A DNA stretch of 64,000 nt from Lachnospiraceae bacterium MC2017 (GTDB lineage: Bacteria; Bacillota; Clostridia; Lachnospirales; Lachnospiraceae), in NCBI GenBank assembly GCA_000701625.1, contig JNJK01000013.1, positions 1 through 64,000 of the forward strand. Reading direction: 5' to 3'. The notes beneath the pieces are model-generated. The model was given only the letters and a program-made list of their open reading frames with translations, was not told where the DNA came from and did not search any database. A program made the translations under genes and the position numbers. The first letter of the stretch is position 1; every line of letters starts with the position of its first letter. Positions 5,714 through 22,718 of this stretch are shown here, in pieces.

Positions 5714-6835
5714 TTAATTGAATCCCTTGAAATCAGCTACATTTTCTGAAGTAACGTTCTGACACTCGATAACGTGATCCTGTGTAACTTCCTTGCCATC
5801 AAGCGAATCTACCATATCCTGAATAGCTGTCTGGATCATGCTGGGGCTGTATGTTACAGACATGATCCCACCAAGCTCACCAGTGATCTCGCTGTAGCTC
5901 TCACCTCTAAGCACTCCGTAAAGCTCATCGAGTCCGCCGCAACCTGTGATAACCGGCTTATTTGCAAGAAATGCACTCTTTGCACTGTCGTCGATTCCGC
6001 CGCCCTTAAGAGCTTCGAGTATACCCATTGCGAGCTCATCATCCTCTGCGTAGAACCACTTGATAGATGTATTTGCAGAGTCACCCATAAGTGTCTCAAA
6101 TGCTGATTTTGTATCAGATCTGCTCCAGTTCATAGCACCGGAATATGTGATAGCACTGTCAACCTGCTCCTGTGTCCATTTTGCATCGTCAGCAATCTTA
6201 TTTCCGTCAAACTCGATATTTCCGAGAAGGTACTCAGTAAAGCCCTGATCACGGAGAGTTGTTACGGATGATGTATCACCCTCATATACATATACCTGAT
6301 CGCCGGGCTTCAGTCCCAGAGATACGAAATAAGCTGCGCTGCCTGCACCGATACCTTCGTTATCACCCTTAACATTTGCAACTGCACTTGCTTCAACCCC
6401 GTCGATGATACGGTCAAAAGCAACATAAGGAATCTCTGCATCAACAAGTTCCTGGATAGCTGACTGCACTGTGTCATCAATAGGCTGGATAACAACCGCG
6501 ATGTTCTTATCACCCTTTGCGATAATGTCCTCTACCTGTGTGATCTGATATGCTGCATTCTCACATGTGATAACTTCTGCGGAATACTTGCCTGCTCCGT
6601 TTACTTCCTCAACCTTTTCCTTTGCAAATGTTGCAACAGAACCTGTCCAGCCGTGATCTTCCGGTGCAGTAAGTACATAGATATGTGTTGCATCTCCGCC
6701 TGCTGTTTCTGTTCCTGATGCAGATTCTGTTGCTGCTGCCTTTGCATCTGTAGCTGCTGCAGAGCTGCTTCCGCATGCTGTGAGTGAAAGTGTCATAACG
6801 CCTGCAAGAAGCGCTGCCAATATCTTCTTTTTCAT
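5714..6835 (-). CDS. Sugar ABC transporter substrate-binding lipoprotein (MglB/ChvE-like)
   Basis: The protein begins MKKKILAALLAGVMTLSLTAC, a lipoprotein signal with the lipobox cysteine, then a Ser/Ala/Thr-rich linker. The rest is a periplasmic-binding-protein fold of the RbsB/MglB class (THIYVLTAPEDHGWTGSVATF, YVAFDRIIDG, WFYAEDDELAMGILEAL). I chose the ATG at 6835 because GGGAGG lies 6 nt before it; the ATG at 6850 would place that site inside the gene. It is the first gene of the ABC operon, and its leader holds two copies of a 13-bp motif (6942-7006). Ligand unknown. Confidence 0.9.
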   Translation of the reverse strand: MKKKILAALLAGVMTLSLTACGSSSAAATDAKAAATESASGTETAGGDATHIYVLTAPEDHGWTGSVATFAKEKVEEVNGAGKYSAEVITCENAAYQITQVEDIIAKGDKNIAVVIQPIDDTVQSAIQELVDAEIPYVAFDRIIDGVEASAVANVKGDNEGIGAGSAAYFVSLGLKPGDQVYVYEGDTSSVTTLRDQGFTEYLLGNIEFDGNKIADDAKWTQEQVDSAITYSGAMNWSRSDTKSAFETLMGDSANTSIKWFYAEDDELAMGILEALKGGGIDDSAKSAFLANKPVITGCGGLDELYGVLRGESYSEITGELGGIMSVTYSPSMIQTAIQDMVDSLDGKEVTQDHVIECQNVTSENVADFKGFN

Positions 6836-6941
6836 ATTGTTTCCTCCCAAAAATCGTGTGTTTCACGTTGTTTCTTTTGATGTACTAATCATAAATCCTG
6901 CAAGTGTCTCCATCTTTTCTCTGTATTTATTTACGCCTCAT

Positions 6942-7080: not shown

Positions 7081-8520
7081 TTAGTTTGCCTGTTTTCTGG
7101 CATCGAGGTCTGCGTAAATCTTCTCCATCTTCTTCGGTGTCAGATCATAGAAAAGAACTGAGATACCGGAGATCGCGATAACTACTGCCGGGAAAAGATT
7201 TACAAGTGCGTTGATACCGATCTTAACAGCTTCTGTCTGCTCTGCATTCGGAACATATCCGATAGCTGCGAGAAGAGATACTGTTACGATTCCTGTTACA
7301 GCTGTTGCAAGCTTTACAGAGAAGCTTACAAGTGAGAATGTGAGACCAACCTCACGTACACCATACTTCCAGTCGCCATACTCGATACTGTCGCACATCA
7401 TTCCGGGTGCGATGTTCTCATTAGCCATTGTGAGACCGATAAGAGCGGATACACCAAGCAGGAACGGTGTATTGTTTGCAGGTACGAGGAACAGTAATAC
7501 AAGAGCTGCAACCTGTGTGAATGTTGTGAGGAGCATGAAGCCCTTCTTTGTAAATACTCTTGTACCCCATGCAAGTGTAAGGTTTCCAAGAAGCTGACAT
7601 ACAGTCATTGTTGTAAAGATCGGAGCGATCATGATAGGATTTCCTACAACATACAGTACGTAGTATGCAAGCATTGACATACGTGCCATACATCCGATAG
7701 CACCTGCAAATGTTGAAAATACGGTGATCATGATGTTCTTATTCTTTACAATGAGCGGGAGTGCCTCTTTGATCGGTGTAGGCTTCGTCTCAGCTTCAAT
7801 GCTGACAAAATTCTTTTCCTTACATTTCCATGCACAAAGTAAGCACGCCGGAATGAGCAGGATAGAGAACAGTACTGTTGTCAGGAAGTAACCCTGTGAA
7901 TTAGGTGTTTTGCTATGACCAAAGTACAGGATCAGAGGCATTGCAACTGCTGAAAGAACCATGCTGGCAACAGCCTTTCCGATAGCACGGCAGGATGCGT
8001 AGTCCATACGAACCTGTGAATCCCTTGCAACCAGATTTACGAGACCCTGGTAAGGAATGCAGAGTGCTGTGTAAGCCATACCTGCGCCGATGTAGCATAC
8101 AAGACACAGAACAACTTTCATCACACCCTGTACAGGAAATACCGTAAATGTAAGGATATTAAATATCGCAAGGAATATCGGTGAGAACATGATATACGGA
8201 CGGAACTTTCCGAAACGTGTTTTTGTTTTATCACATACCGCACCCATCATAGGATCGTTGATCGCATCCCAGATTCTCGCTACCACAAATATAAGTGAGA
8301 TCGCTGCTGCTGAAAGTCCTACGATATCTGTGTAGAAAATTGTGAGGTAAGTATTGATCATATACCATGAAAGCTGACATCCAACCTCACCCATTGCATA
8401 GAAACCACCAGTCACCCAGTTTGTCTTTTCACCCTTTTTCGCCCCACTCGACGCTTCAATAAGATATTCGTCTTCAAGACCTGCTGCACCTTCTACAGCA
8501 GTATTTGACATATCATTCAT
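7081..8520 (-). CDS. Glycoside-pentoside-hexuronide (GPH) family cation symporter
   Basis: A 479-residue, twelve-helix MFS protein of the MelB/UidB class: GEVGCQLSWYMINTYLTIFYTDIVGLS near the N-terminus, then RIWDAINDPMMGAVCDKTKTRFGKFRPYI with the conserved NDP and RfGkfRP elements. It should import a glycoside with Na+ or H+. The ATG at 8520 is preferred because GGGAGG precedes it by 5 nt; the upstream ATG at 8538 would include that site. It follows the AraC-GH39 gene after a strong terminator, so it probably has its own promoter. GPH carriers are commonly found with glycoside-cleaving genes. Confidence 0.9.
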   Translation of the reverse strand: MNDMSNTAVEGAAGLEDEYLIEASSGAKKGEKTNWVTGGFYAMGEVGCQLSWYMINTYLTIFYTDIVGLSAAAISLIFVVARIWDAINDPMMGAVCDKTKTRFGKFRPYIMFSPIFLAIFNILTFTVFPVQGVMKVVLCLVCYIGAGMAYTALCIPYQGLVNLVARDSQVRMDYASCRAIGKAVASMVLSAVAMPLILYFGHSKTPNSQGYFLTTVLFSILLIPACLLCAWKCKEKNFVSIEAETKPTPIKEALPLIVKNKNIMITVFSTFAGAIGCMARMSMLAYYVLYVVGNPIMIAPIFTTMTVCQLLGNLTLAWGTRVFTKKGFMLLTTFTQVAALVLLFLVPANNTPFLLGVSALIGLTMANENIAPGMMCDSIEYGDWKYGVREVGLTFSLVSFSVKLATAVTGIVTVSLLAAIGYVPNAEQTEAVKIGINALVNLFPAVVIAISGISVLFYDLTPKKMEKIYADLDARKQAN

Positions 8521-8725
8521 ATAACCTCCCGGCTGCAATGAACGCTTGCAGTTTTTACCTTCCCAATAATTAAAAACTTATGTAACTGTCAAAAATAACT
8601 TTTATCCCTTTGCGGGATACTACGTGCACGTTCGTTATGTATATACTTTAATCGCTGCGACTCTGTATCTCTCGCTGTACATTCCACGTTCATATACATT
8701 CCTTTCAAATTCCGGATAAAAAAAT

Positions 8726-8831: not shown

Positions 8832-11240
8832 TTACTCCATGCAGAAAATATGCACAAGACAAATCTCATGTGGTTCGAGTGTCACATTCAATCTGACTGA
8901 ATGATCTTCGCGGTCGATCACTGCTCTTTCAAGTGTCATCTTCGGTTCACTCACAGATTCCAGATACTTTACATCACTCCTCATCAGCCTGTTTTCGTAC
9001 TGAAATTTTTCCCATTCATCAAGGATACTTCCGTGATCACGGTTCATGATCCTTTTCTTTATATACCAGCTTCCGTTTCCGCGGAGATGCTTTATTACTA
9101 CAGAAAGTTCAAGCGGTGTCTCACTGAAAAATGTTCCACTCTTTAATTTAGAAAGAGGTATCTCCTCCGGTCCGAGAAAATATCCCGCAGAAAACCATGA
9201 GTCATTAAAGAGCAGGAGCCTTATGCCGCCGTTATCGGTTTCTGTAAGTATGTAATGTTTTCCGTGGCTCAGAAGTCTGTGACCCAGCGTATTAAGGAAT
9301 GCCAGGGCAAAATAGGCAGGTTTTCTTATCCTGTCCTTTGAAATGATCCCTATACTTCCGTTCAGAATGCCCACAGAGTCCATATAGTTACTTATCCAGT
9401 CCGATGCACTCATGATCGCAAGGGCATCGACCTTTCCGAGAAGTGCTTCTGCTCTGGATGCTATATAGCAGGCACGGAAGCAGCTGTCATTCACGTAGTT
9501 TCTGTTTGAAATGGATTCATTCCACTCGGTAATGTAGAGCTTGCTGTCAGGGATTCCTGTCTTTTCCATAAGATCCCGCATCTGGCGCACCTGCATTAGC
9601 TCACTGTCGAGAGATTTACACACTCTTCTCTCAAGCGCACCATTTTCCCCTGTGACATTATCATAGGGGAATAACAGAAATGATACGAAATCCGGCTTCT
9701 CATCCTTTTTCACAAGATTTGAGTATAGCTCAGATAATCTCTCCCAATCATCAGCCACAGCCCCGCCGAAACCGCCAATTTCTGCTCCCGGTATCTTTTT
9801 TCTTACAAGCTTATAGATATAATCGTATGCTTCTTCTATCGAGAAGGGATCTCCCTCCCAAAGCCTTGCCTTATCCTCCGGATAAACAGGAATAAATGTA
9901 AGCTCAAAGAACCACTTCGATACTTCCTTTAATCCATATCGCTCCAAAATGTGATTCATAAATTCATTTATGGCAACTTCCCATGCTTTTTTTGAAACAA
10001 ATGGGATATAGTCATTTTGTTTATATACATCGCCCTTTGACAGCGCAGCCATATCAGGGCGTCTGCCGAGACTCATGAACACTTTTAGATGATTATTTAC
10101 AAGGAAATCAAGGGCAGTATCCACCATGTTGAAGTTGCACTTTTTCTTACCGCTTCCATCCGTGATCATGAGCTTTGTAGAAAAAAGTGTCCATATTCGG
10201 ACAGAGGTAAAATGCAGATGCTCGCAAAGATACTGTATATGGAACTGCATATTTGCCTGATTTAAGTCACTCACACTTCCTGCATTTATTATCTTATTCC
10301 ATACTTTTTCATAAGTCTCACCAGGGTTTTCATCCAGATCTTCAACGATCTCTCCGGTAATCTTATTATTTCCGTGTATCGACGCGTTATTTTCGAGACG
10401 TTCCCTGATCTCTCCGCCGACTTTTGCTTTTTCTTCTTCCTTCTTTTTCTTGTCATCGCTATGCAGTTCACGATACTGGGTAGGCGACATGTTCATTTCC
10501 TTACGAAATGCTCTGTTAAAAGATGTTGAATTCGTAAAACCGCAGGCAAGGGCGATCTGGGTCATGTTTTGGTCAGTTCCGGATAAGAGCATAAGAGACT
10601 GCTGCAGACGAAGTCTTGTAACATAGTCTGCGAAATATACGCCTGTATTTTTCTTAAATATACGAGACAGGGTTGACGCCGAAACGTACATACTCTCTGC
10701 CAGATCCGTGAGGTTAACTTCCTGATCAAGATTTCCTATGATATACTGCATCATCTGCTGCATACGGATATCATTGTCAGGATTACCCTGGGCTTCATTT
10801 AAATTTTCCGTCTGATAGTTTTCGATAAGCGTATCAAGAAGAAGGTAGAGAGAACTGTCTATCCTGCAATCTGACTTTCGGGTAGCATAGAGAAATTCCT
10901 CCGTCATGTTGTAGAATATAGTACGGATATCCTCATATGATCTGGTCTTGTCCGCCACAGAATTACAGTAAAAAACAACACTTTTCCCATTCATCACACT
11001 GTTTATCATTTTCATGGTAAAAAGCGCAACACCGACGATAGCGTCACCGGTCTCCTTATAGCTGTACTCAACACCCGGATTTATCATGAGCACATCCCCC
11101 TCATGCAGGGTAAAATTATCCTCAAGGACATGAACCGTAATGCTGTCCTCCAGAACAAAAAGAAGCGTTAGGCTCATAGTCATGGAGCTGTCGTTTTTTA
11201 TCGGTTTTATAACATCATAGGAACAAGTATCGAAATTCAT
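8832..11240 (-). CDS. AraC-family regulator fused to a GH39-like (beta-xylosidase) domain
   Basis: An 802-residue protein. Residues 1-100 form a cupin-like AraC sensing domain (VHVLEDNFTLHEGDVLMINPGVEYSY), 158-260 the double helix-turn-helix (NLTDLAESMYVSASTLSRIFKK; IALACGFTNSTSFNRAFRKEM.MSPTQYR), and about 295-800 a GH39-type TIM barrel with a beta-sandwich tail. The GH39 nucleophile motif is present (ITEWNES, E572). The acid/base motif, normally like WNEP, reads WFFELTFIP (443-451), which would put Ile450 where the Glu is expected. I infer that the barrel may bind sugars as a sensor rather than hydrolyse them. It sits between the deglycosidase operon and the importers and may control both. 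Confidence 0.8.
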   Translation of the reverse strand: MNFDTCSYDVIKPIKNDSSMTMSLTLLFVLEDSITVHVLEDNFTLHEGDVLMINPGVEYSYKETGDAIVGVALFTMKMINSVMNGKSVVFYCNSVADKTRSYEDIRTIFYNMTEEFLYATRKSDCRIDSSLYLLLDTLIENYQTENLNEAQGNPDNDIRMQQMMQYIIGNLDQEVNLTDLAESMYVSASTLSRIFKKNTGVYFADYVTRLRLQQSLMLLSGTDQNMTQIALACGFTNSTSFNRAFRKEMNMSPTQYRELHSDDKKKKEEEKAKVGGEIRERLENNASIHGNNKITGEIVEDLDENPGETYEKVWNKIINAGSVSDLNQANMQFHIQYLCEHLHFTSVRIWTLFSTKLMITDGSGKKKCNFNMVDTALDFLVNNHLKVFMSLGRRPDMAALSKGDVYKQNDYIPFVSKKAWEVAINEFMNHILERYGLKEVSKWFFELTFIPVYPEDKARLWEGDPFSIEEAYDYIYKLVRKKIPGAEIGGFGGAVADDWERLSELYSNLVKKDEKPDFVSFLLFPYDNVTGENGALERRVCKSLDSELMQVRQMRDLMEKTGIPDSKLYITEWNESISNRNYVNDSCFRACYIASRAEALLGKVDALAIMSASDWISNYMDSVGILNGSIGIISKDRIRKPAYFALAFLNTLGHRLLSHGKHYILTETDNGGIRLLLFNDSWFSAGYFLGPEEIPLSKLKSGTFFSETPLELSVVIKHLRGNGSWYIKKRIMNRDHGSILDEWEKFQYENRLMRSDVKYLESVSEPKMTLERAVIDREDHSVRLNVTLEPHEICLVHIFCME

Positions 11241-11265: not shown

Positions 11266-11419
11266 ATATGACACGAATTGCTTCTTATGAAGCCCTCGCA
11301 ATTCTAAAACACTCGCATTCCGCGTAATTACGCTACATGCTCGTGTTTTTGCGGGTCCCAAATAAAAAATCCTTTTTGTGCAAGCACAACCGGATTTTTT
11401 ACTTTTGACCCTGTCATAT
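11266..11419 (-). repeat. Palindromic leader element, family A, copy 1
   Basis: A 154-bp element closed by ATATGACA / TGTCATAT. On the minus strand it reads in from an AGGGTCAAAA motif. It holds a terminator-like hairpin (AAAAAATCC.. GCACAA / TTGTGC ..GGATTTTTT on the plus strand) and further stems (GCGT/ACGC, GAATTG/CAATTC). Its inner edge is 25 nt upstream of the AraC-GH39 start. On position it may also end transcription of the operon before it. Confidence 0.7.
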
Positions 11420-11492: not shown

Positions 11493-11936
11493 TTAGACAA
11501 TGAGAAGTCTTCTCTCGTTTACGTGATGACCGAACTCAGGCATGTAGACCATAGGCTCTTTATCCGGATCAAGATCATTCTGAATGAGGGGCGGCATATA
11601 TGATGAAGTCCAGCAGAAACCGTACTTCAGATCATGATATCCCTGCTTCAGTCCGCCGGGCTTCTTTACCTTAAGAACTGCCGGAACAGTTGTAGCCCAA
11701 TGTGTATGGAAATCAGAAGCCATTTCCTCGTTTGTATATTCCTCACCCTTGAAAGTCCAGGTGATGTCTTCCTTTGTGATCTTTTCGCCGTCGATATAAA
11801 GTGTTCCAGGGCGAAGCTGTGACAGGAAGATTCCTCTGTAATAAGGCAGCTTTACCTTAAACTGAAAGCCTGTAACATTTCCGTCTTCATCTTTTATATT
11901 TCTAAATCCAACTGACTGGATCGTCTGTTTTTCCAT
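11493..11936 (-). CDS. C-glycoside deglycosidase beta-subunit-like protein (DUF6379 type; DgpC/CarC-like)
   Basis: A 147-residue beta-rich protein without signal peptide. The stretch FKVKLPYYRGIFLSQL, then a short DGEKITKEDI strand and VKKPGGLKQGYHDLKYGF, matches what I know of the small subunit of C-glycoside deglycosidases (DgpC, CarC). In that family it forms a complex with a metal-dependent TIM-barrel alpha subunit and helps cleave 3-oxo-C-glucosides. The alpha-like gene lies directly upstream, 21 nt away, which strongly supports the match. It is the last gene of the five-gene operon. Family assignment is from memory, without a search. Confidence 0.7.
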   Translation of the reverse strand: MEKQTIQSVGFRNIKDEDGNVTGFQFKVKLPYYRGIFLSQLRPGTLYIDGEKITKEDITWTFKGEEYTNEEMASDFHTHWATTVPAVLKVKKPGGLKQGYHDLKYGFCWTSSYMPPLIQNDLDPDKEPMVYMPEFGHHVNERRLLIV

Positions 11937-11957
11937 TTCTTTTACCTTCTTTCTAGC

Positions 11958-12830
11958 TTAGTCACCAAGCAGGTTCTTTAACAGGATATGATGTTTTCTG
12001 AGTGTCTGACCTACTTCGTAGCCCTGGTCGTATTTGTCTGCGCCTTCATACTCACTGAGGAGATACCCCTCGTAACCATTATCCTGAAGAACTTTAATGA
12101 TCTCCGGATAAGGAATGGTTGTCTCTTCAAAGTCATCATTCATATTGATGAACTTTGCATGGCAGCAATATACATATGGCAGAAGCGGGATGATGTCCTC
12201 CGGCTTATTAGGTGTATAGTTCGGATCTACCCACTCGCCCGGCTTAAATTCTGTACGGAATACAGAGAAGTCAATGTTCAGACCAAAGTTCTTCGTTCCT
12301 GTTTCCTTGATGAAGTCAACGAAATCAGAAACAAGCTTACCTTTGAGGTTTGACGGTGTGTGAATTTCAGGACACATCTTGATATCGAGCTGTTCTGCAA
12401 GAGGAAGTGCTCCCTTGATGATCTCTCTCCAGTTCTCAACAGGCTCCAGAAGGTCATTGATAACCGGCATCTTTGTTCTCATTACGTGGAAACCAAGTCT
12501 ATGAGCGAGACGAATATCTCTCTTAAGCATCTCGATGGATTCCTCTGTTGTGAGGTCTCTGTCACCGAGAACGTGGCTGTCGATCCAGTTACCATACTCT
12601 GCCGGAACGATCTCGTACTTCTCGCAAAGATGATGCCATTTCTCAACCCATTCATCAGAAGGATATGGATAATTTTCTATATGTGTATTCGCAAGGATCT
12701 CGATTCCATGTGCTCCCATGTCATAGAGATCTTCGAAACAGTCTTCAAGTGTTTTTTCCAGACCAAACTCTGCTGAGTAGCTGTAAAGAGCAACACCGCG
12801 CTTCGGTCCCTTTTTATCATACTGGTACAT
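11958..12830 (-). CDS. C-glycoside deglycosidase alpha-subunit-like TIM barrel (sugar phosphate isomerase/epimerase fold)
   Basis: A 290-residue xylose-isomerase-like TIM barrel. Likely metal ligands are visible at the expected strand ends: E155 (MCPEIHTP), D187 (GLNIDFSV), H224 (CCHAKF) and E260 (LLSEYEG). A further His, H157, may act in catalysis. N-terminal [13 protein letters not shown] resembles the DgpB/CarB alpha subunits, which use a divalent metal to split 3-oxo-C-glucosides by deprotonation at C2 and elimination. The beta-like gene follows at 21 nt. It could instead be an ordinary isomerase/epimerase, but the partner gene and the two upstream oxidoreductases favour a deglycosidase. 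Confidence 0.72.
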
Positions 12831-12880
12831 TTTTTTACGTCCTTTCGTTAGCTTTTATATCTATATACTCCCCATAAGTG

Positions 12881-13945
12881 TTAAACTCGATTTTCCTTAA
12901 CCGTGATCATGCTTCCTATTTCTGAAGAAGCCATTGCGGCAAATATCACTCTCATTGCCTTTAATAATTCTTCTGCCGATGATCTTGGTATTTTATTATT
13001 TATAATGCAGTCCACAAATTCGTCTATTACTCCAGAATTTTGTGTTTTACCTGTTCCAACAGTAATATCCGTGTTTGTGAGCATCTCCTCTGTTGAGAGG
13101 AAATTCTGCTTTCCATCACTGGTTTCCAGGATAAGACTGTACTCTCTGTCGTCATAGCATCTCACTGATCCCTTTGTACCATGAACCACGATGGAGTTAT
13201 ATTCTGCACCGTAATCTGTCCACGAAGCATGCATCGTGCCTGTTATGCCACTATCCATCTTGTAAATGCACCATGCATTATCTTCCACATCGATCGGTGA
13301 TCCATCGGGATACTTTTTATCAAGGGTCGCCGTATGTGCGTATACTTCAGTGATCGGCTCTCCTATGAGATAGTGAACGAGATCAGTCTTATGAATACCA
13401 AGATCAGCAAGAGCCCCCATTCCTGCTGCATTTTTCCTGAAAAACCAGGTATCATCCGTTCCTGTCCATCTCTCCGGACCTGCATGTCCGAATTTTGTTT
13501 CGAAGGAAACTACCTCTCCTATAGCTCCTTCACGTATCAGATCATGAGCTTTCACATGTGCAGATGAAAATCTCTGATTCTGCGCGATCATCAGGATCTT
13601 GCCTGACTTTTCTGCCGCATCCGTCATTGCATTACACTTTGACAGAGTGACATCCATAGGTTTTTCACAGAGGACATGCTTCCCTGCCCTAAGGGCAAGG
13701 ATAGCATCATGAGCATGTGCAGCATTTGCAGTGCAGACACTTACCGCATCCAGATCCATAGCCAGAAGCTCTTCTATGCTGTCACAAACTTTTCCACCGT
13801 ATTCTTCTGCCAGCTTCTCAGCTTTTGATCTGGTCCTGTTGTACCATGCGGTTATCTCAACATTTGGATTCGCTGCATATTCCGGTGCATGACGGACTCT
13901 TGTTATAGTTCCGCAGCCAATGACACCAATTCTCACTTTCTGCAT
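12881..13945 (-). CDS. Gfo/Idh/MocA family NAD(P)-dependent oxidoreductase
   Basis: A 354-residue protein. The N-terminal Rossmann domain (1-120) has RIGVIGCGTITRVRHAPEY and the family motif CEKPMDVTLS. The C-terminal half holds GALADLGIHKTDLVHYLIG, the usual substrate-side helix with the catalytic-type Asp and His. These enzymes oxidise or reduce sugar hydroxyls, including C3 of glycosides. It lies inside the operon between the larger oxidoreductase (21 nt upstream) and the alpha-like deglycosidase (50 nt downstream). It may reduce the released 3-keto sugar or oxidise the incoming glycoside; sequence alone does not say which. Confidence 0.85.
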   Translation of the reverse strand: MQKVRIGVIGCGTITRVRHAPEYAANPNVEITAWYNRTRSKAEKLAEEYGGKVCDSIEELLAMDLDAVSVCTANAAHAHDAILALRAGKHVLCEKPMDVTLSKCNAMTDAAEKSGKILMIAQNQRFSSAHVKAHDLIREGAIGEVVSFETKFGHAGPERWTGTDDTWFFRKNAAGMGALADLGIHKTDLVHYLIGEPITEVYAHTATLDKKYPDGSPIDVEDNAWCIYKMDSGITGTMHASWTDYGAEYNSIVVHGTKGSVRCYDDREYSLILETSDGKQNFLSTEEMLTNTDITVGTGKTQNSGVIDEFVDCIINNKIPRSSAEELLKAMRVIFAAMASSEIGSMITVKENRV

Positions 13946-13966
13946 CTGCTGTCCCCCTGCTTTAAC

Positions 13967-15256
13967 TTATTCAGCCTTATAATCGTCGAAATCGTACTTG
14001 ATCACACCGAAGGGTGTCTCCTGCTCACGGATAGCGATGGACTTTGACATCTTTCTGATCTCGTCTGCTGTTACGCTGCGTCCGAGCTCATTTGAAAGCA
14101 CAACACCTTCTGAAAGGAATGCGGTCTGCATTGCGATGTAAGGAGAATCAATCCTTGTCTCATCTGTGAGATCGCCGCGAAGGTATGAATACCACTGAAG
14201 CTGATTGTCGTTGTATTTTTCCATCTCAGGATTAAGTGCCAGCTCCTGCATACCTGTTACATCACCGATAGCGCACTCAAGCTTGTTATCGAAAAGACGT
14301 CCCTTTTCATCCACGCCAAACCACTCAAGTCTCGGCTTCTGAAGAGCGCCGCCACCTACGATATTTCCGCCTTCCGGAACAGCCATAGGACCACCTGTCT
14401 GGTCAACATCTGTAAACTTCAGTCCACCGAGAGAACCTGCGATGAAACTTGTTCCGATCTCATCCATGTGAATAGCCCAGTCTTCATAGATATCCATTGA
14501 AAGACCGTTCTTGAAACGTGCGATTGCTACAGACAGATCTTCTACAGGTGTGTGGCAGTTTACTGCATCATCGATTCTCTTGTCTCTCCAATAATCACAG
14601 GTTGTTGTACCGTATACACTCTCAAGCTCCGGCATACCCATTACATAGAGCATCTGAGCCAGGTGATAGATACCGAGATCGAAAAGCGGTCCATGTACGC
14701 CTACATTAGGATCTACAAAATCACGGCTGAAGAAAGGCATATCATATCCCGGACGGCCCTGACGTCTGTGGCCTACGCTTCTTGCGTGATAGATCTTTCC
14801 GAGCTTACCGTCAGCGATGAGTTCCTTTGCGATTCTTGTCTGAGGATTGTAGATGGAGCTGATCTGTACTGCGAGCTTCTGACCATACTTCTTCTGTGCA
14901 TCGTAAAGGATCTTTGCGTCTGCGTAGCTTGCTGCCATAGGCTTCTCAGAGTAGCAGGGGAATCCTGCTGCCATAACTGCTGTTGCAACAGATGTATGAA
15001 GGTTATTGTGTACGCATACCTCGACTTCATCGATGTCATCTCTCTTTAACATCTCACGGAAGTCCTGATACAGGCAATCTTCTGAAAGTCCGTACTTCTT
15101 GCCCCACTTCTCAAGCTTATCCTTGTCGATCTCTGCTGCTGCAACTACGCGGAGGTTCTGTCCTCTCTTATTAAGGTTCTCGATTACTGTCATGTGACGG
15201 TGTGAGATCATTCCACATCCGATTATCGCGATTCTAAGTTCCTTTGGTGTACTCAT
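13967..15256 (-). CDS. Gfo/Idh/MocA family oxidoreductase, probable glycoside 3-oxidase (DgpA-like)
   Basis: A 429-residue protein, longer than its neighbour. It has a Rossmann motif IAIIGCGMISHRHM, the SEKPMAASYADAK motif, and VHGPLFDLGIYHLAQMLYVMG in the substrate domain. A long insertion (about 290-390) lies near the C-terminus. In known C-glycoside operons a Gfo/Idh/MocA enzyme oxidises the glucose C3 hydroxyl before the deglycosidase acts. This gene is a good candidate for that step by size and position, second in the operon. Direct proof of substrate is absent. Confidence 0.8.
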   Translation of the reverse strand: MSTPKELRIAIIGCGMISHRHMTVIENLNKRGQNLRVVAAAEIDKDKLEKWGKKYGLSEDCLYQDFREMLKRDDIDEVEVCVHNNLHTSVATAVMAAGFPCYSEKPMAASYADAKILYDAQKKYGQKLAVQISSIYNPQTRIAKELIADGKLGKIYHARSVGHRRQGRPGYDMPFFSRDFVDPNVGVHGPLFDLGIYHLAQMLYVMGMPELESVYGTTTCDYWRDKRIDDAVNCHTPVEDLSVAIARFKNGLSMDIYEDWAIHMDEIGTSFIAGSLGGLKFTDVDQTGGPMAVPEGGNIVGGGALQKPRLEWFGVDEKGRLFDNKLECAIGDVTGMQELALNPEMEKYNDNQLQWYSYLRGDLTDETRIDSPYIAMQTAFLSEGVVLSNELGRSVTADEIRKMSKSIAIREQETPFGVIKYDFDDYKAE

Positions 15257-15310
15257 TTTTGTTATCTCCTTATTTCTACTTTATGTTCAAATTTTTGATG
15301 TTTTTTCTTT

Positions 15311-16147
15311 TTACCAGCCGAGAATCTTCAGATACTCACGACTTCTTCTTGCGCATTCGAGCGGATCTGTTTCATAGTGCTCATCCTGCTCTACTACTAC
15401 CCAGTTCGCATTTGCTTCTACTGACGCTTCCAGAACAGGCTCCCAGATCATCTGGCCAAATCCAACAGGTCTGAAACCGAAATAACCTGTATCGCCATCT
15501 GATTCTTCGGTTTCGATACCAATGAGCTTGTACATATTTTTGACCTCACCCTTCTTGATATAGTCCTTAAGGTGAACTACCGGGATCCTGTCAGTGTACT
15601 TTTTGATAAATTCCGGTGCTTCTCCGGTTGCTACGTCGCACCAGCAGGTGTCAAGTTCACACATGAGATTGTCATGAGGGATTGCTTCAAACATAGCATC
15701 ATAGCCGTATCTTCCATCAGGAAGCTTTACAAATTCGAAGTCATGATTGTGATAGAGGAATGTCATTCCTGCATCATGGATCTTCTGGCCTACTTCATTA
15801 AGTAGCGGAAGGAATTTCTCAAATCCTTCAGGATTTACCGGGCGGTACTCTTCAGCCATATAAGGCATTACCAGATACTTAACTCCGATTTCCTTGTAAT
15901 CCGCGATCACCTTGTCCAGATCTTCCATCATCTCTGCAAATGCAACGTGTGCGCTTATCGGTGTGAGTCCGACTTCTTTTAATGTTTCTTTGATGAAAGC
16001 AGGCTCCAGACCGTAAAGTCCGGCGAGCTCTACACCGTCATATCCAAATTCTTTGATCTTTGTCATTACATCTTTGAAATTCTCCGGAGTATTCTCCAGA
16101 AGATCTCTAAGTCCATAAACCTGTACTGCAACAGGAAGCTTACTCAT
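15311..16147 (-). CDS. Sugar phosphate isomerase/epimerase family protein (IolE/xylose-isomerase-like TIM barrel)
   Basis: A TIM barrel of about 278 residues with MSKLPVAVQVYGLRDLLEN at the N-terminus and likely metal-site residues in LYHNHDFEF, MCELDTCW, VVHLKDY and VVVEQDEH. This is the pattern of family members that isomerise sugars or cleave 3-keto-glycosides. I chose ATG 16147, with a GAGG site 9 nt before it, over an upstream GTG at 16162 that contains the site. First gene of the operon, 54 nt before the large oxidoreductase. It may act on O-glycosides or on the freed keto sugar. Confidence 0.82.
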   Translation of the reverse strand: MSKLPVAVQVYGLRDLLENTPENFKDVMTKIKEFGYDGVELAGLYGLEPAFIKETLKEVGLTPISAHVAFAEMMEDLDKVIADYKEIGVKYLVMPYMAEEYRPVNPEGFEKFLPLLNEVGQKIHDAGMTFLYHNHDFEFVKLPDGRYGYDAMFEAIPHDNLMCELDTCWCDVATGEAPEFIKKYTDRIPVVHLKDYIKKGEVKNMYKLIGIETEESDGDTGYFGFRPVGFGQMIWEPVLEASVEANANWVVVEQDEHYETDPLECARRSREYLKILGW

Positions 16148-16318
16148 TTTCAGTTGCCTCACTTTCTTTTTCTAAAACATATCCCAATGCTTTTTAAGCA
16201 TCTTACCCGTTCCTATCAGGCTTTGCGCCTGCGCTTTTGTATGGTCTTATGATAATCTTTATCCCGCTTCTTCTCTTTGGATTGTTTTCGTTTTAGGTGC
16301 ACATTTATTGCATTAAAA

Positions 16319-16411: not shown

Positions 16412-16722
16412 TGATGTCACGGATTGGTTACTGTTCACTCGCTTCCAGCTCGCTCACGTAACGGATTTTGCCAATTAAATCGCCTCCGGCGATGGGCAAA
16501 ATCCAATGGCTTTTCATCTTTCTTGGTCGCAACCTCCGCAGCGTAGTGCTCCGGTTGCGTCTGAACAGTAACACGGATTGATTCATTGCTACGCAATTCC
16601 CGCAATCCTAAAACACTCGCATTCCGCGTAATAACGCTACTTGCTCGTGTTTTGCGGGTCCCAAGGTCTCAATCCTCTTTGTGCAAGCACAATCGGATTT
16701 TGACCTTTTGACCCTGACATCA
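16412..16722 (-). repeat. Palindromic leader element, family A, copy 2, split by a 146-bp insertion
   Basis: Closed by TGATGTCA / TGACATCA. Removing the 146-bp element and one 8-bp duplication leaves 157 bp, the size of the other copies (154 and 157). Its inner stem GGATTG/CAATCC replaces the GAATTG/CAATTC of copies 1 and 3. Its end overlaps the stop codon of the GH32 gene. Confidence 0.7.
16419..16580. mobile_element. MITE-like element, copy 1 (146 bp) with 8-bp target duplications
   Basis: The element (16427-16572) starts GTTACTGTTCA and ends TGAACAGTAAC, perfect 11-bp terminal inverted repeats. It is flanked on both sides by ACGGATTG (16419-16426, 16573-16580). Inside are two stems, GGATTTTGCC/GGCAAAATCC and CGCAACC/GGTTGCG. 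There is no coding capacity. It has inserted into a family A repeat, whose intact counterpart shows the empty site. Confidence 0.88.
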
Positions 16723-18192
16723 TATTTTCCAGAAATCAAGATTCATTTTTACATTTCCGCTCGCAGAGAAACGTATGCCATCTGCCTCCTTAGGAGCATT
16801 AACAACTGCAGAAAACGCATTTTCTCCATCATTTACAAATATTTCTGCTGAAAACCTGTCGAGAAGGATACGCAGTTTTATTTTTCCACCCTGATATCTA
16901 ACCGCAAATTCTCTCTTGTTATTAATATCATTAGCAAAACCGGAGTAAGTCCGGTCAAAAATCGCAACACCATCCTTCGGATGATAGATAAAATCTGTGT
17001 GAAACTGCGAATCCGCGTGAAATTCTATCCTAAATTCCGTATATTCCGGTCCATTCGGACAGATTTCAAGCTCCATATCGCAGACTTTCCCGTTTACCCC
17101 GGGAAGAACTACAGATTTATTCAAATACACATCTTTATATGCAACATGATCCTTGCGGTAACTCTCTATTTCTCTAACCGGCATTTGATAAAGCCTGCCA
17201 TCTTTGATCCTGAGTTCCCTTGGAAGGATCATCTGTCCAAACCATCTCTGCCCATCAGGTACTGCATGCGATGATTCCCATGACTGCATCCAGGCAGTCA
17301 TGATCCTTCTGCCATCCGCTGCCTTAAGCGTCTGCATAGCATAAAAATCAAGTCCAAAATCTATTGCATATACACCTTCTCTTGTATATTTATGAAGCTT
17401 TCGGTCATAATTTCCTATTACTACGATATTTCCATTTCCGTTATGGAATTCCAATGTTCTCGCCTGCATCGACTGCGGTGATGTAAGTATTAGGTATTTT
17501 CCATCAAGCTCAAAAAAATCCGGACACTCCCACATACTTCCGTATTCTTTTCTGCAGCGGTCAAGAACAGTAACAAAGTCCCACTTTATACCGTCCATGC
17601 TCTCATAAAGTAAAATAGAGCCACTTCCATCATCAGATCTGCCGCCTACGACCAGACTATAGTGATCATCATCCTCAAACCGGAAAATCTTTGGATCTCT
17701 GAAATCAACAGGACTCCAGCCCTCAGGAAGACCTTTTGCATCTATTACCGGATTTGACGGATATTTTTCATAATCAACACCATCTCCAAATGCCAGACAC
17801 TGCGTCTGCCTGATGATCTCCTCCCCGTCTTTTTCTTCCTCTCTGACTGCAGTATAGACAAGCATCTGCCTGCCGTCCTGCATCTCGATAGCACTACCGG
17901 AAAAACAGCCAAAATTGTCATAGTTTTCATCCGGAGCCATTGCTGCAGGCAGGTAATCCCATTTCACAAAATCTTCAGAAACCGCATGCCCCCAATGCAT
18001 TGGTCCCCACTGCGTTTTATATGGGTAATACTGATAAAACTGATGGATTTTTCCCTTATACATAGAAAATCCATTTGGGTCATTCATCCATCCACTTCTC
18101 GGTGAAAGATGAAAAAAAGGTCGATCCTCTGCCTTTATCATTTGCTCCGCGTCCATTTCATAGACACGTGCCTTTTCTAAATACTCACTCAA
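16720..18192 (-). CDS. Glycoside hydrolase family 32, beta-fructosidase/sucrose-6-phosphate hydrolase
   Basis: A 490-residue cytoplasmic enzyme with the full GH32 set: WMNDPNG (nucleophile D38), FRDPK (transition-state stabiliser D166) and WECPD (acid/base E222), then a C-terminal beta-sandwich. It should hydrolyse sucrose, sucrose-6-phosphate or short fructans. The start is set at a TTG (18192) 8 nt after a GAGG site, because the open frame further upstream runs through a palindromic repeat. No signal peptide. It lies downstream of LacI and the CUT1 transporter, and that context favours unphosphorylated sucrose or fructo-oligosaccharide. Confidence 0.9.
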   Translation of the reverse strand: MSEYLEKARVYEMDAEQMIKAEDRPFFHLSPRSGWMNDPNGFSMYKGKIHQFYQYYPYKTQWGPMHWGHAVSEDFVKWDYLPAAMAPDENYDNFGCFSGSAIEMQDGRQMLVYTAVREEEKDGEEIIRQTQCLAFGDGVDYEKYPSNPVIDAKGLPEGWSPVDFRDPKIFRFEDDDHYSLVVGGRSDDGSGSILLYESMDGIKWDFVTVLDRCRKEYGSMWECPDFFELDGKYLILTSPQSMQARTLEFHNGNGNIVVIGNYDRKLHKYTREGVYAIDFGLDFYAMQTLKAADGRRIMTAWMQSWESSHAVPDGQRWFGQMILPRELRIKDGRLYQMPVREIESYRKDHVAYKDVYLNKSVVLPGVNGKVCDMELEICPNGPEYTEFRIEFHADSQFHTDFIYHPKDGVAIFDRTYSGFANDINNKREFAVRYQGGKIKLRILLDRFSAEIFVNDGENAFSAVVNAPKEADGIRFSASGNVKMNLDFWKI

Positions 18193-18212
18193 AACTTTTT
18201 CCTCTTTATATA

Positions 18213-18247
18213 TTGATATCGGGATCAAAATATATTTTGACCCTGAC
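18213..18247 (-). repeat. Mini palindrome in the leader of the GH32 gene
   Basis: GGGATCAAAA / TTTTGACCC hairpin of the same family as the elements at 11266 and 39454. Its edge is about 25 nt upstream of the GH32 start, the same spacing as the full copies have to their genes. Confidence 0.5.
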
Positions 18248-18248
18248 G

Positions 18249-19232
18249 TCATACATTTGTTGACATACCTTTTATGAGCTTAACCGGCAATGTGATCATA
18301 CTCTGGGTTGGCTTTTCTCCTTCGATCTGACTCTCCAGATGCTGAAAACACTTTGCGGCAAGCTCCTTAACCGGCTGCTCTATCACAGTGATAGACGGAT
18401 GTGACAGCTTGATAATACCTGTTCCGTCATAGGATACGATCTTTACATCCTCAGGAATCCGCATACCGGATTTCAACGCTTCTATCTCGATATTCATGGC
18501 AATAATATCTGTCGCAAAGACTCCATCAATATCAGGATGATCGCAGAAAAAATCCTGACACAACTTTTGGTTATATTCATAACTCAGATAATTCCATTTT
18601 GTATAAATATTTTCTAACTCAATTCCATTTTCTCTCAACACATTTTCAAACGTGTCGTGTCGAACTATAAATGGAGCAGATTTTTTTTCCTCTGCCCTGA
18701 ATTGAACAACCTTTTTGCATCCAGCACGAAGCAGTTCCTCTGCTGCCAGCCGTCCTCCGACTTCATGATCAGACCGCACACACGGTATACCATTTCCTAA
18801 CTGGCGATCCAGTGCTACTATCGGTCTGTCTATAGCTGCATACTCCTCTATATCAAGCGAATGAGATGCTACAACTACGCCGTCAACAAGCTTTTCTTTA
18901 AGCATTGCGAGATATTGATGCTCGTAATTTTCCTTAAACCAGGTATTGCAAAGCATAATTTTGTACTTGTGCTCCGCACATATTTCTTCCAGTTCATTTA
19001 CAAATTCTGAAAAAAACGGATGATCTATTTCCGGGACGATTACCGCAATAACACCGCTTTTATTGCGATACAGGTTTCTTGCAACAGCATTCGGTGTATA
19101 ATTCAGTTCTTTGATCGCTGCCTCGATACGTTCGCGTGTTTCCTCCTTTACATATCCGGTTTTATTGATAACGCGGGATACCGTTGCAACACCCACCTTT
19201 GCTAATTTTGCAACTTCCTGTATGGTAGCCAT
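18249..19232 (-). CDS. LacI-family transcriptional regulator
   Basis: A 327-residue repressor. Residues 2-50 form the LacI headpiece (TIQEVAKLAKVGVATVSRVIN, YVKEETRERIEAAIKELNY with the hinge helix after it); 60-327 is a periplasmic-binding-protein-like sensor (IAVIVPEIDHPFFSEFV, VSYDGTGI). It lies between the ABC permease gene and GH32. Palindromes of LacI type (TGGAAYCCGTTCCA) overlap the promoter of the transport operon, so it probably represses that unit until sucrose or a related sugar binds. An AGGGTCAAAA motif sits just upstream of its start. Confidence 0.9.
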   Translation of the reverse strand: MATIQEVAKLAKVGVATVSRVINKTGYVKEETRERIEAAIKELNYTPNAVARNLYRNKSGVIAVIVPEIDHPFFSEFVNELEEICAEHKYKIMLCNTWFKENYEHQYLAMLKEKLVDGVVVASHSLDIEEYAAIDRPIVALDRQLGNGIPCVRSDHEVGGRLAAEELLRAGCKKVVQFRAEEKKSAPFIVRHDTFENVLRENGIELENIYTKWNYLSYEYNQKLCQDFFCDHPDIDGVFATDIIAMNIEIEALKSGMRIPEDVKIVSYDGTGIIKLSHPSITVIEQPVKELAAKCFQHLESQIEGEKPTQSMITLPVKLIKGMSTNV

Positions 19233-19313
19233 AAAAAATCCGTCCTTTCGTATTTTTGACCCTTACATCTTTGATATATCTAGTTTATCAATAAGTACGT
19301 GATTTTCAAAATC

Positions 19314-20171
19314 TCAGCCCTTAATTCCGGAAGATGCAATTCCTTCAACATAATATTTCTGCATAAAAATGAACATAAGTATCATCGGTATCGCAGAAAT
19401 AACCAGTGCTGCCATGATCGCACTGTAATGAACCGGCTGCGTTCCAAAAAATACCTGAACAGCAAGCTGGATGGTTCGTTTTCCCTCTCCTGTCATAACC
19501 AGGAACGGCCACATGAAATCATTCCAGTGCGCAACGAAATCCAATATAAATACAGTTGCATAAACTGTTTTTGAAATGGGCATTACGATACTGAAAAAAG
19601 TTCTGATACGTCCGCTTCCATCTATCGAAGCTGCCTCAAGAAGTTCATCCGGTACATCAGAAAAGAACTGCCTAAACATATAGATCGAGAAACATTTAGG
19701 AATAAACGGAATGACCAGTGCCTGGAGTGTATTTACCCAGTTTAACTGTGACATTTCGATATAGAGCGGCAGCATGATCGCTTCCATCGGCAGGACCATC
19801 AGCGCGATCACCAGATTTAATACCAGTCCTTTTCCTTTAAAATCAAACTTCGCCAGTGCATATCCGCAAAGTGAATTTAAGAAGAGATCACCGATCAAAA
19901 TTAAAGCGATGTACAAAAATGTGTTTTTTAACACATTTAAGATATTTAATCGTGTAAATACTTCTATATAATTATTTAGTGACGCATGTGTCGGAATAAA
20001 AGTCCGTATAGAATTCATATTTGCAAAAATTTCTGCCTCCGGCTTTAACGATGCACATACCATCCATAACAACGGAGAAACAAATATGATTCCGATAATG
20101 AAATTTCCGCAATAAAATAATACTTTTTTCAGAATATTATTCCGACCCATTGAACTATTCTTTTTATCCAT
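19314..20171 (-). CDS. Sugar ABC transporter permease, MalG type (CUT1)
   Basis: A 285-residue membrane protein with six helices and the EAA loop (ELLEAASIDGSGRIRTFFSIVMPISK) that contacts the ATPase. It pairs with the MalF-type permease 13 nt upstream. No ATPase gene is present; CUT1 systems in Firmicutes often share a common MsmK-type ATPase encoded elsewhere. Confidence 0.92.
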   Translation of the reverse strand: MDKKNSSMGRNNILKKVLFYCGNFIIGIIFVSPLLWMVCASLKPEAEIFANMNSIRTFIPTHASLNNYIEVFTRLNILNVLKNTFLYIALILIGDLFLNSLCGYALAKFDFKGKGLVLNLVIALMVLPMEAIMLPLYIEMSQLNWVNTLQALVIPFIPKCFSIYMFRQFFSDVPDELLEAASIDGSGRIRTFFSIVMPISKTVYATVFILDFVAHWNDFMWPFLVMTGEGKRTIQLAVQVFFGTQPVHYSAIMAALVISAIPMILMFIFMQKYYVEGIASSGIKG

Positions 20172-20184
20172 GAAGCTTCCCCTT

Positions 20185-21078
20185 TCACTCTTTCGCCGTA
20201 GTAAGACGCTTCATTACAAGCGACATAGTTACCACAATAACGAAAAATACCGCAGCTGCTGAGCAGGCATAACCAAAGTTTCCTTCCTGAAAACCTTCTG
20301 TATAAATATAGTAGACCAGCGTCTTTGTCGCGTTCTGCGGGCCTCCCTTTGTCATTACGTACGGCTGGGTAAATAGCTTCATCGCCTGGATCATAGTGAT
20401 CATGATCACATATTTGATAGTTGATTTAAGTCCGGGTAAAGTAATATAGATTAATTTCTGAAATGAATTTGCCCCATCAACCGAAGCCGCCTCATAGTGC
20501 GAGCTCGGAATTGCCTGAAGTCCGGCGATAAAGATCATCATCTGATATCCTGCCCCCTGCCATGCGGACATAAAAATGATAGAATTCATCGCAGTTCTAG
20601 GATTACTGAGGAAATTGATGCTTTCCATTCCAAGACTGGTAAGAAGTGAATTGATAAGTCCTGTGGAGGGATTTGAGTTATATAAAATAGTCCAGAGAAT
20701 AGAGATAACAACCATTGATGTAAGCTGCGGTGCAAAGTACATCGTTCTAAAAAAAGCTACGCCACGTGTTTTTGAAGCAACAAGCAGCGCCAATGCCAGC
20801 GCAAGTGCCGACTGCACCGGAACTACAACGATCGTAAAGTACAGAGTATTTCGAAAAGCATGCCAGAAATCAGGATCCTTAAACAGCTTTACATAGTTTT
20901 CGATATTGATAAAAGTTATATCATTCGGGCGCATGATCTGATAACGAAATACTGAAAAATATACAGTATAGATCATGGGTACCAGCAAAAATGCGATCAA
21001 AAGTACAAATGCCGGTCCTACGAATGCCGCAGCTGCTACACTTTCACTTTGTTTTTTTATAGCCTTTGATTTTACCAT
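20185..21078 (-). CDS. Sugar ABC transporter permease, MalF type (CUT1)
   Basis: A 297-residue membrane protein with six helices and the EAA loop (HYEAASVDGANSFQKLIYITLPGLK). It works with the MalG-type permease downstream and the binding protein upstream. The gap to the binding-protein gene is 184 nt and holds a stable hairpin. Confidence 0.92.
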   Translation of the reverse strand: MVKSKAIKKQSESVAAAAFVGPAFVLLIAFLLVPMIYTVYFSVFRYQIMRPNDITFINIENYVKLFKDPDFWHAFRNTLYFTIVVVPVQSALALALALLVASKTRGVAFFRTMYFAPQLTSMVVISILWTILYNSNPSTGLINSLLTSLGMESINFLSNPRTAMNSIIFMSAWQGAGYQMMIFIAGLQAIPSSHYEAASVDGANSFQKLIYITLPGLKSTIKYVIMITMIQAMKLFTQPYVMTKGGPQNATKTLVYYIYTEGFQEGNFGYACSAAAVFFVIVVTMSLVMKRLTTAKE

Positions 21079-21159
21079 TGAAAATCCTCTTATTATTCAA
21101 ACTTCTTTGTACATTTTGTAACTGTTCTGAATTGTTACTGCATTTTTAACTTCCGGAAA

Positions 21160-21188
21160 AAAAGTGCCCTGCTATGCAGAGCACTTTT
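21160..21188 (-). terminator. Intercistronic hairpin between binding-protein and permease genes
   Basis: AAAAGTGC..CTGC / GCAG..GCACTTTT, a stable stem ending in T residues on the minus strand. Hairpins at this place in CUT1 operons often give more binding protein than permease, by partial termination or 3'-end protection. That effect is inferred here. Confidence 0.55.
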
Positions 21189-21262
21189 AGTCACCTTAAC
21201 TTCACTTTCTGACACAGACAGCGCCGCAGCACTTCCATTACCTATAAACTGAACTGCACCAA

Positions 21263-22645
21263 TTATTTTGCATAGTAAGTGTTGTAATCTTCAGTGAAGT
21301 CAGCTGCAACACTGTCAAGCTGCTCTTTAATATATGCCTCATCAACTTTATGGTCTGATGCAGCCGCTGAGAAGATATTTGTCATTGCTTCTGCATACTT
21401 TGTGGAGAAAGAAGCATAGGACGGAGTTCTCGGACGAGGAGATGCAGTGTTATTCAGCTGCTCAACCATGAGCGACAGCGGATAATTTTTGTACTCAGCC
21501 ATTGCCTCTGTCTCATAAGAAGAATTTCTGGTTGCCGGCTTAGCGATGGCAGCTGCATAAGTTGCTACATTGTCTGTATTCATAAGCCACTGCAGGAACT
21601 TTCCGGCTGCTGCTGTATCCTTGCAATCCTTTGAGATAGCTGCAGACCAGTCACCGCATGGAGAAACAGCCTTCTTTGTAGCATCAGATACAGGGTAATA
21701 TGTTACACCCCAGTCAAAGTCTGCATTTTCGCTAAGTACTGAAACATCCCAAGAACCACCAAGCATGGTTGCACATGCCTTATTCAAAAATTCATCGGTG
21801 ATAGGCTCGATATTTGCATATCCATCTGCAATAAGCTGTGCAAGAAAAGCACTTGTCTTAACCGCTTCATCGCTGTTTACATATCCTTCTGCAGTGTCAC
21901 CGCTGTCATTGATGTAATCCTTGCCATTTGAAATGTACATGGGTTCCAGTGCATACGGAAGACCTTCGCCATGATCCATGATGATATGTGTTCCAACATG
22001 ATCAGCTGTTGTACATTTTTCTGCAATATCTCTCATTTCTGACCAGGTGATCGGATTATCTACTGTTCTGCTGTCCAGGTCATCAACATCAACACCGGCC
22101 TCTCTTAACATATCCTTGTTGTAATAAAAAGCTACAGATGATTCTGTTGCAGACATTGCATAAATTTTTCCATCATAGGTGCACTGAGCAACTGTTGACG
22201 GAACAAAATCCTTCAGATCATCTGCTGTGAAATAATCATCAAGAGGTACGATGATTCCATTAGCCGCATAGTATGAAACCTGTGGTCCATCAACAAAAAA
22301 GATATCCGGCAGAGAACTGGATGTTACAGCTGTAGCTACCTTATTGTCGTATGCGTATGAATCGGAACGGTCGATTGCTTCTCTCGTAACCTGTATATCC
22401 GGATTAGCTGCATTCCACTCTCCGATCTTCTCAGTCCACCAGTTTTCAACCGATTCTTTATCAGTCGGACTCCAGATCGTAAGCTTTGCAGCATCACTAG
22501 ATGATGCAGCGCTTGATGATGCAGCACCTGCCGATGTCTCAGATGCAGCTGCCGAAGATGCTGTAGTATTTGCTGATGCACCACCACATGCTGTGAGTGA
22601 TACAGCCATTAAAGCTGCCAATACCGTCATTAAGTTCTTTTTCAT
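21263..22645 (-). CDS. Extracellular sugar-binding lipoprotein of CUT1 ABC transporter
   Basis: About 460 residues. It starts MKKNLMTVLAALMAVSLTACG, a lipoprotein signal with lipobox Cys, followed by an Ala/Ser-rich spacer and an SBP_bac_1 domain (KLTIWSPTDKESVENWWTEKI, MLGGSWDVSVLSEN). ATG 22645 is chosen for its GGGAG site and for the signal peptide; the longer frame runs back through the leader. It captures sugar, likely sucrose or a fructo-oligosaccharide given GH32, and hands it to the two permeases. Confidence 0.92.
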   Translation of the reverse strand: MKKNLMTVLAALMAVSLTACGGASANTTASSAAASETSAGAASSSAASSSDAAKLTIWSPTDKESVENWWTEKIGEWNAANPDIQVTREAIDRSDSYAYDNKVATAVTSSSLPDIFFVDGPQVSYYAANGIIVPLDDYFTADDLKDFVPSTVAQCTYDGKIYAMSATESSVAFYYNKDMLREAGVDVDDLDSRTVDNPITWSEMRDIAEKCTTADHVGTHIIMDHGEGLPYALEPMYISNGKDYINDSGDTAEGYVNSDEAVKTSAFLAQLIADGYANIEPITDEFLNKACATMLGGSWDVSVLSENADFDWGVTYYPVSDATKKAVSPCGDWSAAISKDCKDTAAAGKFLQWLMNTDNVATYAAAIAKPATRNSSYETEAMAEYKNYPLSLMVEQLNNTASPRPRTPSYASFSTKYAEAMTNIFSAAASDHKVDEAYIKEQLDSVAADFTEDYNTYYAK

Positions 22646-22704
22646 TCGTAACTCCCTTTCTCCGCCCTTCTCATGCGGATAAATAAAACAATTTCCTCCT
22701 TTTA

Positions 22705-22718
22705 TGGAACCCGTTCCA
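22705..22718 (-). promoter_or_regulatory. LacI-type operator, downstream copy
   Basis: TGGAACCCGTTCCA, a palindrome with central CG, in the leader of the binding-protein gene. It shares its arms with the site at 22781. Confidence 0.65.

Follow-up and report, generated by a model that had tools for sequence, protein, structure and literature searches.

The first 64,000 nucleotides of contig JNJK01000013.1 from Lachnospiraceae bacterium MC2017, called the window here, contain on the minus strand a five-gene operon that sequence comparison identifies as a dfg cluster, a known glycoside-cleaving system, in a variant without DfgE and with an extra oxidoreductase. The operon probably strips plant flavonoid glycosides of their glucose by a non-hydrolytic route, with DfgD as the most likely oxidase for both its O-glycoside and its C-glycoside branch. 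What we observe is homology, conserved residues, the set of genes, and a lack of DfgE and DgpA orthologues in the genome, and from this we infer every reaction in this strain. C-glycosides resist ordinary chemical and enzymatic attack, and the identity of the oxidase in genomes lacking DfgE and DgpA determines which gut and rumen bacteria count as C-glycoside degraders. A screen requiring DfgE or DgpA beside DfgAB would overlook the operon of the window.

The open reading frames confirm the layout given in a preliminary description of this DNA, with two Gfo/Idh/MocA oxidoreductases and a second barrel protein upstream of a small gene pair, all in one minus-strand operon. The gene order is dfgC, dfgD, Ox354 (a name coined here), dfgA and dfgB, with intergenic gaps of 54, 21, 50, and 21 bases. 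The gene at the upstream end is real, but the boundary placed at 16147 falls on an ATG inside the reading frame (residue 6), and dfgC starts from a GTG at 16162. According to folding calculations, the unit is bounded by two strong T-tailed hairpins on the minus strand, one after dfgB (11480-11424, -29.3 kcal/mol) and one upstream of dfgC (16352-16305, -22.0 kcal/mol), which are likely terminators. A simple terminator scan picked up neither hairpin. Promoter-like sites were fewer than in shuffled sequences (three observed, shuffle mean 11.8).

The 290-residue and 147-residue proteins encoded at 11958-12830 and 11493-11936 are, by homology, DfgA and DfgB, which make up the C-glycoside deglycosidase of Eubacterium cellulosolvens (EuCGD). 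The smaller protein, previously described as DUF6379-like, matches PF19906 ('C-glycoside deglycosidase beta subunit') with 122.2 bits against a cut-off of 27.6, and DUF6379 is the name carried by some homologous PDB chains. It is 81% identical to 7bvs_B (E 1.8e-83). The TIM-barrel alpha subunit DfgA matches 7bvs_A (E 1.8e-187) gap-free and at equal length, as an EuCGD-type short alpha subunit without the lid domain. It shares 261 of 290 residues (90%) with DfgA of L010, a locus from a Eubacterium metagenome-assembled genome (MAG); L010 DfgA reads by eye as the 7bvs_A chain, and L010 DfgB is 99% identical to 7bvs_B. The entries 7EXB and 7DRE, published as the DfgA-DfgB complex (PMC8563793), come up in the PDB search with the same sequences as the 7BVS chains. 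The best PDB and Pfam matches of both genes thus fall inside the deglycosidase family, as had been proposed for the pair.

In the solved structures of the EuCGD pair the active site is built from both subunits, and five metal ligands, a catalytic histidine, and an assisting glutamate are described for AgCGD2 and PuCGD (PMC8563793). DfgA keeps all seven, which do not vary in any of the 23 aligned rows: E155, D187, H224, and E260, already correctly placed in the preliminary description, as well as K226 of the metal site, the catalytic H157, and E262. Loop 121-133 of DfgA is 100% identical to that of L010, and loop 110-139 of DfgB is 87% identical to that of 7bvs_B. The alpha and beta genes are adjacent, separated by the 21-base gap, as expected of the DfgAB type. 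Enzymes of this type form alpha4beta4 complexes with Mn-dependent 3-oxo-C-glucoside cleavage, and the pair of the window is predicted to do so. EuCGD was active on three of the four C6-glycosides tested and on neither of two C8-glycosides (PMC8563793). DfgA and DfgB are kept by selection, because they are 99% and 98% identical to the proteins of Lachnospiraceae bacterium NK4A144 (locus L002), although only 75.5% and 83.1% of the fourfold degenerate sites agree.

The two genes upstream are, as judged from their sequences, orthologues of DfgC and DfgD. DfgC (15311-16162, 283 residues from the GTG) is a TIM-barrel protein with 82% identity to L010, and among PDB chains it comes closest to the Agrobacterium O-glycoside beta-eliminase AtOGE (8bvk, E 5.5e-25). 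The AtOGE metal site of H132, D163, H189, and E233 and the base H134 are kept in DfgC as H138, D171, H197, E258, and H140, respectively, and these five residues are the same in all 11 aligned rows. This supports the earlier hedge that the operon acts on C-glycosides or on 3-keto-dependent O-glycosides. DfgCD of C. scindens and E. cellulosolvens are reported to remove sugar from O-glucosides (PMC11170127). By analogy, DfgC would cleave 3-keto-O-glucosides in this strain.

The oxidation step is one point at which the operon departs from its known relatives. As reference for DfgE we took the last oxidoreductase of L010 (357 residues), which was assigned by gene order and a published gene list (PMC8398226) rather than from the deposited DfgE. 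The genome containing the window (4.26 Mb, 99.98% complete, one PF19906 gene) has no DfgE or DgpA orthologue among its nine PF01408 proteins, and its best DfgE match, at 29%, is DfgD itself. DfgD (13967-15256, 429 residues) is 92% identical to its L010 counterpart, and in the PDB it comes closest to two DgpA proteins (E 9.8e-26 and 6.3e-25), with the next match after a gap at 5.2e-16. Ox354 (12881-13945, 354 residues), which lies between dfgD and dfgA, is 25% identical to DfgE and 29% to DgpA; in its PDB search DgpA was only slightly ahead of glucose-fructose oxidoreductase. We rejected Ox354 as a DfgE orthologue at 25% identity. More generally, DfgD and Ox354 are both too distant from DgpA and DfgE (25-29%) to be orthologues of these C3-oxidases, which corrects the preliminary description on this point.

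We searched 15 whole genomes, that of the window and 14 others with close DfgAB, for DfgE, Ox354, and DfgD. DfgE was present in five of the 15 (G405, G406, G407, G408, and G410), Ox354 with 74-100% identity in another five (G000, G400, G401, G403, and G404), and neither in the remaining five (G397, G398, G399, G402, and G409). The genome-wide query was DfgE rather than DgpA, and in G409 it still picked up DgpA proteins; this genome has DgpA orthologues (74, 62, and 50%) and no DfgD. In nine of the 15 genomes, with completeness not given for the 14 relatives, neither DfgE nor DgpA was found, and all nine have DfgD, in the MAG G403 only as two 71-residue fragments. In the eight relatives other than G409 that lack DfgE, the searches gave 23 more matches in addition to DfgD and Ox354, and all 23 were compared with DgpA and DfgE; none exceeded 34% over more than 100 residues, and short stretches of 44-99 residues reached 35-45%. 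Four genomes (G397, G398, G399, and G402) combine DfgAB and DfgD with no Ox354, DfgE, or DgpA orthologue found. Relatives with this combination are Butyrivibrio INlla16, AC2005, and VCD2006 as well as NK4A144. Because DfgD stands alone in these four, we favour it as the oxidase, and it presumably supplies both the O-cleaving and the C-cleaving branches. As a separate observation, remnants of DfgE lie beside dfgAB in L011 (8749-8871, last 41 residues) and L012 (10494-10697, first 68 residues), and both genomes carry a full-length DfgE elsewhere.

Several points weigh against DfgD as the supplier of 3-oxo-C-glucosides. DfgD has Tyr197 at the position where DgpA and Ox354 have His. The 3-oxo-C-glycoside of E. 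cellulosolvens is reported to be made by DfgE, not by DfgD (PMC8563793, PMC11170127), and DfgE oxidises homoorientin for DfgAB (PMC11170127). An in-silico study considered DfgD probably not involved in C-deglycosylation, with most human-gut MAGs that have dfgABCE lacking DfgD (PMC8398226). DfgCD of C. scindens, a pair without DfgAB, gave no C-deglycosylation alone in the work described in PMC11170127. The loci L140 and L143 (genomes G250 and G046) count in favour of DfgD in that they have DfgC-like (60-63%) and DfgD-like (42-44%) genes beside divergent deglycosidase pairs, in the orders D-C-B-A and B-A-D-C, but since DfgE-like genes (44% and 33%) are also present in these loci, DfgD need not be the oxidase there. 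Our oxidase search covered the Gfo/Idh/MocA family, and C3-oxidases of other families were not searched for. Ox354 is also present in five of the nine genomes lacking DfgE and DgpA and could be the oxidase. If Ox354 replaced DfgE in the C3-oxidation of C-glycosides, DfgD would serve only the O-branch together with DfgC. Ox354 directly precedes dfgA in the window and in the same-genus genome G380, its orthologues and those of DfgE are mutually exclusive across the 15 whole genomes, and it carries the family lysine (EKP, K95) and the GIH motif common to DgpA. We nevertheless regard such a replacement as unlikely in view of the four genomes that have DfgD alone. Furthermore, distant Ox354-like genes (45-55%) are located near CUT2-like importer genes in ten of the 17 loci read, out of 23 matches outside the genus, which suggests a general sugar oxidoreductase. 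The Ox354-like gene directly follows a CUT2-type permease in L006, L008, and L009. Ox354 occupies the same place in G380 as in the window but is not between dfgD and dfgA in L002, L003, L004, and L007.

The substrate of the pair can be questioned as well. PuCGE is reported to cleave 3-keto-O-glucosides in addition to the C-kind (PMC10628242), and DfgAB of the window could therefore act on 3-oxo-O-glycosides instead. An operon used mainly for O-glycosides or other 3-keto-glycosides, in which DfgAB no longer meets C-glycosides, would fit the fact that DfgE, the dedicated C-glycoside oxidase, has been lost. We consider it improbable, as the active-site loops and catalytic residues of DfgAB are close to those of EuCGD and both subunits are held by selection. 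A generic inositol-type sugar isomerase and dehydrogenase operon with no link to glycosides is hardly credible: NCBIfam models label the two oxidoreductases iolG-like (148 and 69 bits) and the 283-residue barrel iolE-like (54 bits), but these scores fall far short of the curated thresholds (355 and 290 bits), and the PF19906 match and the near-identity of the pair to the biochemically proven DfgAB contradict it.

Based on the preferred assignment of DfgD, a reaction sequence can be proposed. A Gfo/Idh/MocA enzyme, most likely DfgD, would oxidise the C3 hydroxyl of the glucosyl group of O- and C-glucosides. The Mn-dependent alpha/beta complex DfgAB would then beta-eliminate the aglycone from 3-oxo-C-glucosides, by homology those of 6-C-glucosyl flavones such as homoorientin and isovitexin, and DfgC would perform the equivalent beta-elimination on 3-oxo-O-glucosides. 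The 2-hydroxy-3-keto-glucal product is presumably hydrated to 3-oxo-glucose, which would be reduced to glucose either by re-oxidising DfgD-bound NAD(H) or by Ox354. D3dgpA is reported to re-oxidise its bound NADH with 3-oxo-glucose or methyl 3-oxo-glucoside (PMC11239390), and 3-keto-glucose has its own Gfo reductase in the Agrobacterium operon (PMC10628242); Ox354 may therefore be a reducing partner.

Comparison with close relatives points to recent rearrangement of the operon. NK4A144 has proteins 97-99% identical to DfgC, DfgD, DfgA, and DfgB of the window; Ox354 does not separate its dfgD from its dfgA, and no Ox354 orthologue was found in that genome. G380 has the same operon with Ox354 in place at 97%, but its DfgA and DfgB are only 73% and 59% identical to those of the window, whereas the neighbouring proteins are 93-99% identical. 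The DNA identity falls at the border of Ox354 and dfgA from about 90% to 58-80% in dfgA-dfgB, is 45-49% in the gap that follows, and recovers inside the gene of an AraC-type regulator with a GH39 domain (AraC-GH39). Identity at fourfold degenerate sites is 69-85% in dfgC, dfgD, Ox354, and the GPH symporter gene, 40-43% with sharp edges in dfgA and dfgB, and an intermediate 57.9% in the AraC-GH39 gene, the first part of which is more diverged; the GH32 row for L107 (10 sites) was left out of this comparison for an apparent alignment failure. The drop at these sites with its sharp edges disfavours fast protein evolution. Because the G380 pair is about equally distant from all close DfgAB rows (67-73% and 56-64%; 39-44% for two distant rows), the simplest explanation is that the pair was replaced from a source outside the sample; the compared rows contained no donor. 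The divergence looks like the exchange of a specificity cassette. A tentative generalisation, to which we give somewhat less than even credence, is that rumen-type Lachnospiraceae have a DfgE-free operon in which DfgD feeds both DfgC and DfgAB and in which dfgA-dfgB is a specificity cassette swapped by recombination within a conserved operon. With the natural exchange confined to the alpha/beta pair and one edge of the regulator gene, the two operons lend themselves to a comparison of what determines aglycone specificity.

Of 397 genomes sampled from the family, 35 have PF19906 genes, 34 of them over the cut-off. We surveyed the neighbours of these genes in 66 stretches from 30 genomes, several per genome and some truncated at contig ends, counting matches from 38% over 150 residues upwards. 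In 32 stretches a neighbour resembled DgpA or DfgE (DgpA in 11, both in 17, DfgE in three, and DfgE with DfgD in one), only a DfgD-like neighbour in four, and none in 30. DfgD beside PF19906 genes is therefore the exception family-wide, given the four stretches with DfgD only and the one with DfgE.

The closest known system is dfgABCDE of E. cellulosolvens (EuCGD is its DfgAB, PDB 7BVS/7EXB/7DRE), of which the window shares orthologues of DfgA, DfgB, DfgC, and DfgD; its genome differs in the lack of DfgE and the presence of Ox354. The L010 locus is ordered A-B-C-D-E instead of C-D-Ox354-A-B and is flanked, as in the window, by AraC-GH39 (43%) and GPH (49%) genes. A CUT2-type importer is located downstream in the window, and none was seen in the 16.8 kb of L010; its genes recur in L002, L006, L008, and L009 and, owing to contig or stretch ends, partially in L005 and L007. 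With the AraC-GH39 and GPH genes found in L010 and the CUT2 genes in other relatives, the preliminary description overstated the case in suggesting a new locus type. No DfgE-free dfg operon, Ox354, or AraC-GH39 in this setting appeared among the best matches, by title and start of abstract, in the open-licence literature. The dgpABC system of strain PUE (PuCGD/PuCGE) shares the two-step logic and a homologous alpha/beta pair, but no orthologue of its DgpA was found in the window genome. The subunits of EuCGD and PuCGD are reported to be 34% and 38% identical, and PuCGD has a lid domain and favours C8-glycosides (PMC8563793). The Agrobacterium operon of AtOGE, with which DfgC aligns, shares the logic of oxidation, elimination, hydration, and reduction; unlike the window, it uses GlycDH as oxidase and has no C-glycoside enzyme. 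AtOGE and the CGEs have been called unrelated in sequence (PMC10628242).

The AraC-type regulator (8832-11240, minus strand; PF12833 and PF01229) is fused to a degenerate GH39 domain. It retains the nucleophile glutamate, and the NEP acid/base motif of GH39 hydrolases is replaced. According to an automatic alignment of 38 AraC-GH39 proteins at deglycosidase loci, including that of the window, glutamate is present in the acid/base column in four and at the nucleophile position in 36. The protein looks like a regulator with a catalytically dead GH39 part, and probably senses the glycoside and turns on the locus. At E <= 1e-30 the window genome has no other protein of this kind, and the same holds for its counterpart in G380. 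In ten hand-picked PF19906 genomes, mostly with multiple PF19906 copies, 21 of 57 AraC-GH39 genes are no more than 10 kb away from a PF19906 gene, compared with 1.9 expected from the genome share. Nothing on point about AraC-GH39 sensors was found among the best matches of open-licence papers. Further downstream on the same strand are a GPH-family sugar:cation symporter (7081-8538; TIGR00792, 327.6 bits, cut-off 231.35), a CUT2-type sugar-binding protein (5714-6850; PF13407), and open reading frames for a CUT2-type ATP-binding cassette (ABC) ATPase (4171-5676) and permease (3099-4169). These three CUT2-type genes are conserved together in L002, L006, L008, and L009; the CUT2 label is our reading. 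Our guess is that these candidate transporters import the glycosides.

Relatives such as NK4A144 and rumen MAGs suggest that the strain is linked to the rumen. Two copies of the Clostridiales-1 RNA (RF01699) in the same orientation, at 16566-16722 and 11266-11419, bracket the dfgC-D-Ox354-A-B unit, and a third minus-strand copy is at 49366-49522. The flanking repeat was considered as a mobile element and rejected, as it is this RNA, for which the genome has 43 matches, full or partial. The adjacent region 16720-22741 (minus strand) contains a GH32 gene with putative LacI and sugar ABC importer genes, a sucrose/fructan-type locus with about 97% DNA identity to NK4A144. Farther away on the minus strand, 32107-34593 encodes a GH3 protein in which the order of the two Pfam domains is reversed, and 35325-37553 encodes a GH106-like alpha-L-rhamnosidase; flavonoid glycosides could be substrates of the rhamnosidase too.

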